A stretch of DNA of 35,618 bases, taken from NCBI GenBank assembly GCA_016282135.1, contig JAEEKA010000100.1, positions 1 through 35,618 on the forward strand, written 5' to 3'. The translations under genes and the position numbers were made by a program. This document shows, in pieces, positions 1-18,300 of the stretch; the first letter of the stretch is position 1, and every line of letters begins with the position of its first letter. The notes beneath the pieces are model-generated. The model saw nothing but the letters and a program-made list of their open reading frames with translations, had not been told where the DNA came from and searched no databases. This DNA comes from Oscillospiraceae bacterium (GTDB lineage Bacteria > Bacillota > Clostridia > Oscillospirales > Oscillospiraceae).

Positions 1-498
1 CGGGTGGTCCACGTCGCACTGGAGGTTCACCAGGGTGGGCCGCTGCTCCAGAATGCCGGTGCGGTAGCCGTCCTCCAGGGCGTCCATGAAGGTCTTCATG
101 TATTCGTGGCCCTGGTGGATGTACATGTCGTCCCGGATGCCGATGACGTCGGCCATAAAGGAGACCATGTTGGCGGTCTCCCGGACGGTCTCGCCGTGGG
201 CGATCTGGGATTTTTTCTCGTCAAGAACCTGCTCCTCCAGGCCCAGCAGATTGCAGGCGGAGGCGAAGGAGAAGCGGGTGCGGGTGGAGTTGTCCCGGAA
301 CAGGGAGATGCCCAGGCCGGAGTTGAAGATCCGGGTGGACTTGTTGTGCTCCCGCAGGTCCCGGAGGGCGTCGGCCACGGCGAAGACCGCGGCGATTTCG
401 TCGTCGGTCTTGTCCCAGGTCCAATAGAAGTCCTGCTTGTACATGTTGTTGATCCGCAGCTTTTCCAGCTCGCGGGCAAGTTCAAATGCTTTGCTCAT
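1..498 (-). CDS. ygeW: Knotted carbamoyltransferase, YgeW type (3' end outside window)
   Basis: The first 166 codons are present and the C-terminus lies beyond the left edge. The protein begins MSKAFELARELEKLRI and carries the carbamoyl-phosphate-binding motif of aspartate/ornithine carbamoyltransferases, seen here as FRDNSTRTRFSF near residues 70-80. It also has a K-S-Q-I-A-H-G-E-T segment typical of the YgeW branch, which differs from true OTCase and is linked to YgeX/YgeY/SsnA gene clusters. YgeW's physiological substrate is not settled. The ATG is fixed by AAGGAG on the minus strand (positions 508-513) nine bases upstream. It is the second gene of a leftward pair with ygeY, 318 bp apart, and that gap holds hairpins rather than a clear promoter. 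Family assignment is fairly secure from the N-terminal half; function is inferred. Confidence 0.85.
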   Translation of the reverse strand, partial: MSKAFELARELEKLRINNMYKQDFYWTWDKTDDEIAAVFAVADALRDLREHNKSTRIFNSGLGISLFRDNSTRTRFSFASACNLLGLEEQVLDEKKSQIAHGETVRETANMVSFMADVIGIRDDMYIHQGHEYMKTFMDALEDGYRTGILEQRPTLVNLQCDVDHP

Positions 499-520: not shown

Positions 521-544
521 TGTAGGGACAAGCATCGCTTGTCC
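521..544. repeat. TGTAGG-headed perfect hairpin
   Basis: The sequence TGTAG is followed by an 8-bp perfect stem, GGACAAGC, a three-base loop ATC, and GCTTGTCC. It lies just upstream of the ygeW ribosome-binding site. The TGTAGG head is the same as that of the larger hairpin element starting at 646, so the two are probably related intergenic repeats. No run of T follows on either strand, so it does not look like an intrinsic terminator. Confidence 0.7.
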
Positions 545-645: not shown

Positions 646-797
646 TGTAGGGGCGGCCGATGACCGCCCGGCATTCGGAACGAATGCAATTTGCCGGAGG
701 CAAATCCAGCCGGGTCCCGTCAACGTGCCCGGTTGGATCGCCCTGTCGGGCGATTGTTCGCCATTGGCGAACCGGGCGGCCGATGACTGCGCCTACG
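646..797. repeat. Intergenic element made of a string of short hairpins
   Basis: This occupies most of the 318-bp gap between ygeY and ygeW; I see no gene in the gap. Reading rightward there are six hairpins in a row: 651-669 (GGGCGG/CCGCCC), 671-687 (7-bp stem, loop GAA), 689-705 (7-bp stem, loop GGA), 706-736 (9-bp stem with one G-T pair), 737-754 (7-bp stem, loop TGTC) and 756-772 (7-bp stem, loop ATT). Every stem has a different sequence. A 14-base direct repeat GGGCGGCCGATGAC stands at 651-664 and 774-787, and GTAGGGGCGG at 647-656 is an imperfect inverted match to 787-796. It resembles a non-autonomous REP/MITE-like repeat, but no named family is recognised. Confidence 0.75.
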
Positions 798-816: not shown

Positions 817-2214
817 TTATCTGATCTCGTTCCCGGTCAATTCCTGCCGGAAGGCAGTGGCGGAGCCGTCCTTGTTCTCGGGCTTGTAGAGCATGGGAAC
901 GGCGGCGTAGAGGGCGGCGCAGACTACCAGATCGTGCTTCCAGGTGATCTCATTGGGAGCGTGGGCCTGGCTCTCCGCTCCGGGGCCGAAGCCCACGCAA
1001 GGGATGCCGTAGCGGCCCTGGATGGACACGCCGTTGGTGGAGAAGGTCCACTTATCCGTCAGGGGACGGCCCTCCCGCTTGGCCCGGGCGGTCTCGTCCA
1101 CCCACAGGCGCTTGTCGCCCCAGAGGGCGTGGTGGGCGTCCACCAGAGCCTGCACGTGGGGAGCGGTGGCCTTGTTGATCCAGGTGGGGAAGAAGGCCTC
1201 GGTCTCGTAGACGTGGCCGGTCCAGGAGGGACGGTCATACATATACATGGAGACCTTCACGTCCTTGGCGTACTTCTTCACGGCGGGCAGCTCCTCGATC
1301 TCCTTGAGGCAGGACTTGTAGGTCTCGCCGGCGGTCATGCGGCGGTCGATGGAGATGGCGCAGGAGTCCGCCACCGCGCAGCGGCTGGGAGAGGTGTAGA
1401 AGATCTGGCTGGTGGTGCAGGTGCCCCGGCCCAGGAAACGGGCGTCCTCCCAATGCTCGGGATTGTACTTGGGATCCAGCATCTTGACCAGGCCCTTGAT
1501 TTCCTTGTCGTCGCCGGCGTCGTTCTCGTTCAGGTCCCGGACGTTCAGCAGGATTTCCGCCATCTTGTGAATGGCGTTGTCACCCCGCTCGGGGGCGGAG
1601 CCGTGGCAGCTCACCCCGTGGACGTCCACCCGGATCTCCATGCGGCCCCGGTGGCCCCGGTAAATGCCGCCGTCAGTGGGCTCGGTGGAGATGACAAACT
1701 CGATCTTGTTCCGGGCGTCCTCGGGCCCGTCAAAGTACTCGTTGACGATGGACTGCCAGCACATGCCGTCGCAGTCCTCCTCCTGGACGGAGCCTACCAC
1801 CATGAGCTTGTAGCCCTTGGGCAGCAGGCCCAGGTCCTTCATAATCTTGCCGCCGTAGGCGGCGGCGGCCATGCCGCCCTCCTGGTCGGAACCGCCCCGG
1901 CCGTAGATGATGGCGTCGGTTTCGTAGCCCTCGTAGGGGTCGGCCTCCCAGTTGGCCCGGTTGCCGATGCCCACGGTGTCGATGTGGGAATCGATGGCGA
2001 TGATCTTGTCGCCCTCGCCCAGCCAGCCGATCACGTTGCCCAGCTTGTCAAATTCCACCTTGTCGTAGCCCAGCGCAGTGAGCTCCCGGGCGATGCGCTT
2101 TGCCACGCCCTCCTCCTCACAGGATTCGGAGGGAATGGCGATCATGTCCCGCAGGAAACGGGTCATGTCCTTCTGGTATTCCTCGGCTGCCTGCCGAATC
2201 TGTTCGTAATCCAT
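817..2214 (-). CDS. ygeY: YgeY-family M20 metallohydrolase (selenium-metabolism-linked type)
   Basis: This is a 465-aa cytosolic M20/ArgE/DapE-like zinc hydrolase expected to cleave an amide or N-acyl bond; the YgeY substrate is not established. Visible M20 landmarks are the first metal-ligand motif DSHIDTV (H77, D79), the [10 protein letters not shown] motif with bridging D110, the catalytic/metal pair E145-E146 in [11 protein letters not shown], a later metal-site segment EFVISTEPT, and a C-terminal histidine in [14 protein letters not shown]. Its length is normal for YgeY (about 400-465 aa). The ATG is preceded by GGAGGT (minus strand, 2220-2225). YgeY often travels with YgeW, as here, in purine/diamino-acid or selenium-linked catabolic clusters. 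It is divergent from a PAS-HTH regulator that may control it. The sequence gives no evidence of a selenoprotein. Confidence 0.88.
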
Positions 2215-15300: not shown

Positions 15301-18300
15301 GGGAATACGAGCCTGCCTACTGCCGCTGGAGCTTCACCTACGGCGAAAACGGTTCAACACAGAACAGGGATAATATTTTGATTGCGCACGTCAATGATTA
15401 CGGCTTAGACGGCAGCTATCCCTATCTGGGCTGCGGCTGGTTCTATCACTACAACAACGAGAGCGACAGCTACCCCTTCTTCTGGGTGGATGGTTCCGGT
15501 GAAAGCTACGACAGCGACGTCTTCTATATGTACATGTGGAAGGAAACCGGGAGCGGCACCCGCTACTGGACCACGGTGCTTCCCGGCATGGACTACACCG
15601 TTCATTTCTCCGTTCCCAGAGGATGCGAGCAGCCGGAGGATATGATTTCCAACACCGACGAGGGTATTATTCTGCCCAGTGTGACGAATCCCGAGGGCTA
15701 TACCTTCCTGGGCTGGGTGGAGAGCAGCTATGACAACGTTGCCGACTGCCCCGAAACCGTTCTGACCGGCAAATATGTGGCGGATGAGGACGTCACCCTT
15801 TACGCACTGTTCTCCTATCTCGGAGAGAGCAGCGGCGAGGTGGCCTACCGGCTCACCGATGCCGTTGAAAACGGCGGCAAGTACATTATTGTGAGCGAGG
15901 AGAGCATCACCGACAACTCCGCTCTCGCTGTGGGCAATTCCGTTGTGATTAACGAGCATTATCTGAGCCCCATTGAAGCAACCATCGTCAGCGACGACAC
16001 CGTTGCCGTCTCCGATCCGGCCAGAGTGCTTTGGGAGGCTTCCGGCAGCCCGGACCAGGGCTTCAGCTTCTATAACGCCGCTTCCGGCAAGTATATGGGT
16101 CTGGATTCCTCAGAGTATTTGTATCCCTCTGATACGCCTCTGTCCTGGCTTTATACGGCAGATCGCTATCTGGACAACATGGTGGACAGCGAGGGCTATT
16201 ACTACCTGAGCTACGACCAGATGATGAAAAGATATACCACTTCCAAAGAGGGCAGAGTAATCCGCTTCTATCAAGAGTCTGAGGTATTCCCCATGGTCTA
16301 CACCACCGTAATTGAAGGACTCATGGTGGCCCCGGTGGTTGTGTACTTCGTGGATCAGGACAACAACGAAGCGGCGTACGTCTACGCTTCCGGCGAAGGA
16401 ACCGAGAACGCACCCTTCCCCGGCGTCCCCGTCACTGCTCTGGGCGTTGACGAGAACGGCTGGAATTTCTACATGATTACCCTGGATCGGGACGTCTTCA
16501 CCGGTGTGACCTTCTCCGGCGGCACCGACGAAACCCGTACCGCTGAGCTGGGCCTGGGCGAAGAAGGCTACATTGTCTACTACGTCGGCAGCGGCAATGC
16601 TTCCGTTGAGGCCGACGTTTGGCCCGGTCCCGGCGAGGAGCAGGAGGCTACCTGCACCGAGCCCGGCACAATCGTCTATACCGGTCTGCTAACCGGCGAC
16701 GTCCACGGGACGGAGATTGCCCCCCTGGGCCATGATTATCAGGCTGTGGTCACCGAGCCCACCTGCACTGTGGCCGGTTACACCACCCACACCTGCTCCC
16801 GCTGCGGCGAAAGCTACACGGACGAGGAGACCGAGGCTCTGGGCCACGACTTCGGCGAGTGGACCGAGACCACCGCGCCTACCTGCACTGAAGCCGGTGA
16901 GGAGACCCGGACCTGCTCCCGCTGCGACGCGATCGATACCCGCCCGGTGGAAGCGCTGGGTCACGACTTCGGCGAGTGGACCGAGACCACCGCGCCTACC
17001 TGCACCGAAGCCGGTGAGGAGACCCGGACCTGTTCCCGCTGCGACGCAGTGGAGACCCGCCCCGTGGAGGCGCTTGGTCACGACTATCAGGCCGTGGTGA
17101 CGGAGCCCAGCTGCACCGAGGGAGGCTATACGACTTACACCTGCGCCCGCTGCGGCGATACCTATACCGCTGACGAGACCGAAGCCTTGGGCCATGATTA
17201 CAAGGCCGTGGTGACCAGCGCTACGTGCACTGAGGGCGGCTTTACCACCTATACCTGCTCCCGCTGCGGCGACAGCTACACGGACGAGGAGACCGAGCCT
17301 CTTGGCCACGACTTCGGTGAGTGGGCCGAGACCACCGCGCCCACCTGCCTTGATGCCGGTGAGGAGACCCGTTCCTGCTCCCGCTGCGACGCAGTGGAGA
17401 CCCGCCCCGTGGAGGCCCTGGGCCACGACTATCAGGCTGTGGTGACGGAGCCCACCTGCACCGAGGCCGGTTACACCACCCATACCTGCTCCCGCTGCGG
17501 CGATACCTATACCGCTGAGGAGACCGAAGCCTTGGGCCATGATTACCAGGCCGTGGTGACCAGCGCTAGCTGCACCGAGGGCGGCTTTACCACCCATACC
17601 TGCGCCCGCTGCGGCGACAGCTACACGGACGAGGAGACCGAGCCTCTTGGCCACGACTTCGGCGAGTGGGCCGAGACCACCGCGCCCACCTGCCTTGATG
17701 CCGGTGAGGAGACCCGTTCCTGCTCCCGCTGCGACGCTGTGGAGACCCGCCCTGTGGAGGCCCTGGGCCACGACTATCAGGCTGTGGTGACGGAGCCCAC
17801 CTGCACCGAGGCCGGTTACACCACCCATACCTGCGCCCGCTGCGGCGACAGCTATACCGACAGCGAGACCGCTGCCCTGGGCCACGACTTTGGCGAATGG
17901 GCTGTGACCACCGCGCCCAGCTGCACCGAGGCCGGTGAGGAGACCCGTTCCTGCTCCCGCTGTGACGCTTTTGAAACCCAGCCCGTGGAGGCTTTGGGTC
18001 ATGATTACCAGGCCGTGGTGACGGAGCCCACCTGCACCGCAGGCGGCTACACCACCTACACCTGTTCCCGCTGCCAGGACAGCTACACCGACAGCGAAAC
18101 CGACGCGCTGGGCCACGATTACGTCTACGCCGTCACCGTCGCTCCCAAGGTCAATATGCCCGGACTGCTTACCGGGACCTGCTCCCGCTGCCAGGCGACC
18201 ACCACAGTCATGCTGCCCAAGCTGACCGAAGCGGATTATGACTACGAAGTGACCACGGAGCCTACCTGCACCGAAGCCGGCGTGGGCACCTACACCTGGA

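Follow-up and report, generated by a model that had tools for sequence, protein, structure and literature searches.

The window, i.e., the whole stretch of 35,618 nucleotides analysed here, belongs to a draft assembly of 2.51 Mb that is 86% complete. Close to its left edge a hairpin-rich element lies downstream of ygeY and upstream of ygeW, both of which are encoded on the minus strand. The features of the region are as follows:

1–498, minus strand: ygeW, a knotted carbamoyltransferase gene cut by the window edge (TIGR03316, E 1.6e-90)
522–544, plus strand: a separate single REP, GTAGGGACAAGCATCGCTTGTCC, just upstream of ygeW and about 24 bp before its start
647–796: the whole element, made up of GTAG, a terminal hairpin, four core hairpins around a variable centre, an inverted terminal hairpin and CTAC
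647–650, plus strand: GTAG tag of the left terminal REP, at the same spot in 47 of 63 family copies
651–669, plus strand: left terminal REP hairpin, GGGCGGCC-GAT-GACCGCCC, with 7 of 8 pairs; helix 1 of the family, which covaries
671–687, plus strand: core hairpin H1, GCATTCG/CGAATGC, with 99.1% of cells paired and one pair double-changed
689–705, plus strand: core hairpin H2, ATTTGCC/GGCAAAT, nearly invariant
706–736, plus strand: variable centre, an imperfect third stem whose pairing is not conserved across the family
737–754, plus strand: core hairpin H4, ATCGCCC/GGGCGAT, with three pairs double-changed
756–772, plus strand: core hairpin H5, GTTCGCC/GGCGAAC, with five pairs double-changed; most copies have GTTTGC/GCAAAC
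774–792, minus strand: right terminal REP hairpin, inverted and decayed, with two non-standard pairs and one wobble; helix 5 of the family
793–796, minus strand: CTAC, complementary to the GTAG of the right REP
817–2214, minus strand: ygeY, a selenium-metabolism-linked hydrolase gene (NF009555, E 1.4e-176)

A near copy of the single REP GTAGGGACAAGCATCGCTTGTCC is found at the same place in the relative G007, and at a similar place in G006 there is a REP with a different stem.

The initial annotation described this region as six consecutive, unrelated hairpins with perfect or near-perfect stems, and the cluster is real. Four perfect 7-bp hairpins with loops of 3–4 bases are found at 671–687, 689–705, 737–754, and 756–772. 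When the window was scanned for hairpins with a stem of at least 6 bp and a loop of 3–5 bases in a span of 125 bp, four were found here and nowhere else in the 35.6 kb. Three were found at one further site, and the maximum in 40 dinucleotide shuffles was two. For positions 640–802 the predicted fold has z-scores of −6.1 (RNA) and −5.7 (DNA) on the plus strand and of −5.2 (RNA) on the minus strand, and 0 of 200 shuffles were as low in each case. The four core hairpins and two terminal ones uphold much of the original description, but the central stem (706–736) is imperfect and was rejected as a conserved part, as 49.3% of its cells are paired across the family compared with 47.5% in shuffles. 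The extent of the element, first given as 646–797, was corrected to 647–796, as the terminal hairpins at 651–669 and 774–792 carry GTAG and CTAC, respectively. The 14-base direct repeat said to frame the set was also recovered (651–664 and 774–787), and it can be extended to 17 bases at 94% identity. We read this repeat as two near-palindromic REP hairpins, one of which is flipped relative to its tag: the left terminal hairpin of the window copy is flipped in this way, unlike that of most tagged copies, and would thus be the source of the direct repeat.

A cluster of this kind could have been a local accident, provided that no other copies existed in the genome or its relatives and that the stems were not conserved as pairs. 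The own genome holds dozens of copies, and close relatives have them too. The 14-base end piece occurs at 28 places in the own genome with at most one mismatch (3 for a reversed control). Of these, 22 fitted the pattern used for counting hairpin orientation, and 13 of the 22 have CTAC on one side. The core gave 29 blastn matches in the own genome. With a covariance model based on 48 copies, 40 rows at E ≤ 0.01 were obtained, corresponding to 38 places, as two rows are the opposite strand of a listed place; these E-values are rough and the weakest places lie near the threshold. With stricter filters 27 rows at E ≤ 1e-4 remained. By blastn the core was present in 20 of 23 genomes of the same genus, the other three having no match, and in 0 of 16 genomes of other genera; copies from relatives were chosen from among the blastn matches listed. 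The covariance model with stricter filters matched none of 146 other genomes of the order, the own genome being the sole match among 147 and no other genome of the genus being among the rows listed. Tandem whole copies occur, as do core fragments without one or both ends. Contig ends are no more than a few hundred bases away from some of the copies (e.g., C95:270 and C26:154), and such repeats may help to break these assemblies.

The order of parts in the family is GTAG, a terminal hairpin with an 8-bp stem, H1, H2, the variable centre, H4, H5, a second terminal hairpin and CTAC, and the 63 copies span 122–184 bp. They derive from 69 distinct cores after removal of two that were nested, one that was truncated and three that lacked CTAC; CTAC is therefore present in 63 of 63 by selection, having been an inclusion criterion. 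GTAG is found exactly 23 nt ahead of the core in 47 of 63. For covariation, 54 of the 63 copies were aligned, nine with inserts, a shifted start, or unusually long or irregular ends being dropped (L147, two of L120, L043, one of L121, L158, L171, L177, and L169); a second alignment comprised 48 copies hand-chosen from a slightly different set of 63. The 37 pairs of the five helices are paired in 96.6% of cells in the 54 aligned copies. Fifteen pairs have changed on both sides, giving 91 double-changed cells compared with 21.5 ± 3.5 in shuffles, which ignore the kinship of the copies, and at most 29 in slid controls, which account for it. The two terminal hairpins, with 5 and 6 of their 8 pairs affected, account for most of the double changes and, together with H5, are foremost in compensatory change. 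H5 reads GTTTGC/GCAAAC in 36 of 54 copies and GTTCGCC/GGCGAAC in 8 of 54. The stems are conserved as pairs, the central one excepted. The proposal that selection keeps pairing more than sequence fits the terminal hairpins and H5 better than it fits H1 and H2. Within the window copy the stems differ from each other as first described. Between copies, the sequence of H1 and H2 hardly varies, which could also reflect recent spread.

The terminal hairpins have the form of GTAG REPs, as GTAG on the 5' side of a hairpin is a published mark of these elements (PMC3733652; PMC6006769; PMC8266576). In a 400 kb sample of the own genome, made up of 20 stretches largely from contigs known to hold copies, GTAG stood directly before a hairpin of at least 8 bp 39 times where 1.0 was expected, an approximately 40-fold enrichment that applies to that sample. 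The 39 tagged perfect hairpins comprise 18 hairpin sequences, and the next tetranucleotides before hairpins, GCAG, CAAA, and AAAA, reach at most 8 (expected 2.8, 1.4, and 1.9, respectively). The tag directly 5' of the hairpin in 47 of 63 copies and the high, dispersed copy number are those of REP sequences, and the inverted, head-to-head orientation of the two ends is that of REPINs and BIMEs. The two ends of one copy often differ. Among the 47 of 63 copies with GTAG, 28 have ends of differing stem type and 19 have an equal stem 8-mer at both ends, the shuffle mean being 13.0 and a fraction of 0.0185 of 2000 shuffles being as high. These counts suggest that the two ends are weakly coupled in stem type, and that the coupling is weaker than would be expected if one RAYT moved both ends together. 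Some end pairs are one compensatory change apart, so that mutation alone could explain part of the mixing, but the combination of GGGCGGCC with GGACGAGC needs more than that. Within the REP family of the window, the hairpin is inverted behind an upright GTAG in 3 of 22 cases (window 651–669, L014:512, and L027:505), for which hairpin flipping is a possible cause.

A search for a Y1/REP transposase gene, which the initial annotation had proposed, identified RAYT genes in the genus, three of them in the own genome. Twelve RAYT-like proteins of 147–165 aa as aligned carry NH[IVL]H, WQ and mostly YI[ED]NNP motifs. The best solved relative of their profile is E. coli TnpA-REP (4er8, E 1.4e-13), and this similarity together with the HuH, WQ and Y...NP motifs marks them as RAYTs. 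All 12 match NF047646 at E ≤ 0.001, one member scoring 62.6 bits and thus under the cut-off of 80. Residues W94, Q95, E100, H101, and R104, reported for the region of GTAG contact (PMC6006769), align to W122, Q123, D128, H129, and R132, i.e., W, Q, H, and R are kept and D replaces E. The surroundings of 17 RAYT loci, consisting of 15 of the 23 Y1_Tnp rows of the genus and two genes on C81, were searched for tagged hairpins, with spans that were set by hand and that for L115 have no visible frame. Outward GTAG-hairpins were found within 300 bp on both sides at 12 of the 17 loci, 11 of them with matching stems, and 5 of 17 did not show this two-sided arrangement under the same rule; scrambled control tags gave 0, 0, 2, and 0. 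A cognate RAYT flanked by the same REP, as in REPIN and BIME systems, is accordingly found in the genus (11 of 17 loci). The eight other Y1_Tnp rows, of which two were taken for IS200 type, five were longer or unclear and one was a fragment, lie outside the tag test except for the gene on C8 (L033). The latter was set aside as a candidate mover, being of a different, longer type with no GTAG-hairpin in its 2 kb locus; its frame runs to the contig end and its downstream side lies outside the view. Tandem arrays of GTAG-hairpins flank the RAYT on both sides at L112:1351–2536 (G019:C17) and L111:1131–2103 (G010:C31), with a regular spacing of 81–82 bp and 53 bp, respectively.

REP stem type tends to follow the RAYT, as judged from the sequences beside these genes. 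GGGCGAGC is common to two RAYTs at 89% identity, and two RAYTs at 82% identity carry GGACAAGC or GGACGAGC, with a whole composite element adjoining both; these last two types are the commonest composite ends, accounting for 39 of 47 left ends. Two RAYTs at 55% identity, in G004 and G006, have GGGCGGCC in common, which is also the stem type at both ends of the window element. In G006 three stem types lie beside three RAYTs. The cognate RAYT of the GGGCGGCC type was not found in the own genome (86% complete assembly), whose three RAYTs, one on C64 and two on C81, are 35–43% identical to the GGGCGGCC-type RAYT of G006. Given the decay of its right end and the failure to find a RAYT closely related to the GGGCGGCC type in that assembly, the window copy is probably an inactive relic. 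The Pfam search (PF01797) missed the C81 pair, i.e., two of the three RAYTs of the own genome, and gave no Y1_Tnp hit in eight core-bearing genomes, all draft MAGs (G002, G003, G007, G008, G011, G012, G013, and G022). The C81 genes (G000:C81:13494–13961 and 16091–16516; L279 and L280) are about 2.6 kb apart, and one of them is bracketed by a REP with an TGGCCGCGCA stem. Among the best 80 of at least 500 RAYT-like loci of named genomes, GTAG-hairpins were found within 500 bp upstream of 24, downstream of 22 and on both sides of 10, and 44 had none within 500 bp on either side. Six other tags gave 1–6 per side at the same 80 loci, one of them (GTGG) being itself a published variant.

Indirect indication of mobility comes from presence and absence at two gene junctions. 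The ygeW-ygeY junction was located in the own genome and in eight genomes of the same genus, 22 having been searched, and the core is missing from it in 7 of these 8 relatives. In G003, G008, G009, and G010 ygeY and ygeW are about 12–31 bp apart with no GTAG-hairpin between them. In G002, G004, and G007 the junction holds other insertions with REPs or REP remnants, and the composite of G006 differs in its ends (GGACGGCA type) and shows a compensatory change in H1. A similar long extra stretch, possibly coding and flanked by REPs or remnants, is seen at the junction of G002 and G007 (L264:791–1497 and L271:679–1504). A second copy, located between a kbl-like gene and mazG, is absent in G002 and G006. 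Of 23 genomes, mazG could be located in 7, and the own genome, G002 and G006 were the only ones with both flanks; the G002 site has a REP-like remnant. No target-site duplication or footprint could be defined at the filled sites compared, as these carry other REP debris.

Taken together, the tags, the copies, the RAYT flanks, the covariation and the presence/absence pattern lend good support to the earlier suggestion of a DNA element processed through hairpins by a TnpA-REP-like transposase, and the element is most likely a non-autonomous mobile DNA of the REP/BIME/REPIN type, with RAYTs as movers and single-stranded DNA as the intermediate. In it, a family-specific core of four hairpins is enclosed by two REP hairpins that bear GTAG tags and face head to head. 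When the region becomes single-stranded, e.g., during replication, a RAYT (TnpA-REP, HuH/Y1 type) would recognise the GTAG-hairpin and cut beside it, and the strand would be moved to another intergenic site; on the opposite strand, the right end would present a GTAG-hairpin of this kind too. Single-stranded REP is cleaved beside GTAG by E. coli TnpA-REP, which leaves the inverted strand uncut (PMC8266576), and by analogy the same cleavage and strand-transfer chemistry is inferred here. The core hairpins would keep the inner DNA compact, so that the ends may either form one long duplex together or each fold into a REP hairpin of its own, the core serving as a compact spacer that permits both end states. 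In predicted single-stranded DNA folds, the left and right ends are base-paired with each other in 6 of 7 elements, with the core hairpins as a cap; in the mixed-end copy L036 the left end folds by itself. Excised REPINs have been found in sequencing reads, for which long-hairpin and less stable clover forms were sketched (PMC3116915). More tentatively, the four-hairpin core may be a separate selfish module with exchangeable REP ends from several RAYT families, swapped or flipped by single-strand hairpin recombination. This possibility is raised by the composites of G000 (the own genome) and G006, which have different end pairs at the same gene junction, and by the 3 of 22 hairpins inverted behind an upright tag. 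If true, exchangeable ends would let the core outlive any one RAYT.

Some observations count against movement by RAYTs, namely the three genomes of the genus with no core match, the eight core-bearing genomes with no Y1_Tnp hit, the RAYT loci short of tagged hairpins (5 of 17 in the genus, 44 of 80 from named genomes), the weak coupling of the two ends and the missing target-site footprint. Other explanations have to be weighed as well. The core could be an older fixed sequence that repeatedly attracted single REPs, the composite being no unit of movement. The combination of different stem types in 28 of 47 copies and the core fragments that lack one or both ends would fit such a history, which is nevertheless unlikely given the exact 23-nt distance from GTAG to the core in 47 of 63 copies, the whole composites present where relatives have neither core nor ends, and the tandem whole copies. 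The initial annotation had also offered a structured RNA, and the element might act mainly as RNA, transcribed with ygeY-ygeW and stabilising or attenuating the mRNA, with mobility being incidental. It does fold very strongly on both strands, it lies between two genes of the same direction and REPs elsewhere have been suggested to be RNA elements (PMC3733652). We consider such a role improbable. The core is absent from the same junction in 7 of 8 relatives, four of which have no REP there, copies of the element occupy many places, in one genus in the samples, and at gathering scores nothing in the window matches Rfam. On the same grounds, a primary function as conserved structured RNA is unsupported and was rejected.

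DDE transposases use matching double-stranded ends. A conventional MITE, with a DDE transposase acting on terminal inverted repeats and a coincidental likeness of the ends to REPs, would account for the presence/absence between relatives and for matched-end copies such as L040 and L103, which can pair their terminal 23 bases with each other. It is very improbable all the same, as the ends are hairpins with an exact GTAG tag common to single REPs and RAYT flanks, stem type differs between the ends in 28 of 47 copies and no target-site duplication was defined at the sites compared. A chance cluster of hairpins has practically nothing in its favour, being refuted already by the copies, and in addition by the covariation, the z-score of the fold and the hairpin scan relative to shuffles.

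A non-autonomous element moved by RAYTs has its closest counterparts in the REPINs of Pseudomonas (PMC3116915) and in BIMEs (PMC8266576), in which two inverted REPs likewise enclose a spacer, occur singly and in tandem and can pair into a long hairpin, and where RAYT genes adjoin the same REP type. The present family differs in that its two REPs are set apart by a conserved core, formed by four individual hairpins and a variable centre (whole elements of 122–184 bp in 63 copies), that the ends of one copy are often of different stem types and that the host belongs to Clostridia. It resembles the GTAG REP families (PMC3733652) in its 5' GTAG before a stem, of 6–13 bp there, with a short loop, in forming head-to-head dimers and in compensatory stem variants. 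GTAG REPs and RAYTs are described as largely gamma-proteobacterial with scattered members elsewhere (PMC3733652; PMC8266576). The text of PMC3733652, which lists species in figures, makes no mention of Firmicutes, Clostridi-, Ruminococc-, or Faecalibacterium, and the text of PMC6006769 names Clostridia for the IS200-type subclass 1.1 alone, with subclass 2.4 covering "various phyla". A literature search with subscription journals largely outside its scope returned no account of REPINs in Clostridia, an absence that is unproven. Judged by its sequence, the element thus appears unusual among known REPINs in its conserved multi-hairpin core inside a REP dimer, its often mismatched ends, the flipped left hairpin and the clostridial host.

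In this genus of gut Clostridia one genome (G006) has several RAYT-REP pairs, and sister RAYTs at 55% identity keep the same REP stem. Together with a composite of mixed REP ends, this brings two questions within experimental reach, namely the choice of hairpin by a RAYT and the possible exchange of REP ends. IS200/IS605 elements use a HuH/Y1 enzyme and single-strand chemistry, with hairpins at or near their ends. Compared with these, there is no tnpA inside the present element, and the RAYT genes are few and divergent. By motif only, they can be assigned to TnpA-REP/RAYT subclass 2.4 (Bertels group 4; PMC6006769), with which they share the NH[IVL]H, WQ and YI[ED]NNP-like motifs. They are shorter (147–165 aa compared with a median of 194; PMC6006769) and their REPs are short single-foot hairpins. 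REPs inside the gene are reported for subclass 2.4 (PMC6006769), and here REPs adjoin the gene and, for L117, L118, and L279, fall within it or within the match span. In the RAYT-like genes at L118:1387–1875 and L117:1376–1909, which come from other genera, the GTAG-hairpins lie inside the open frame.
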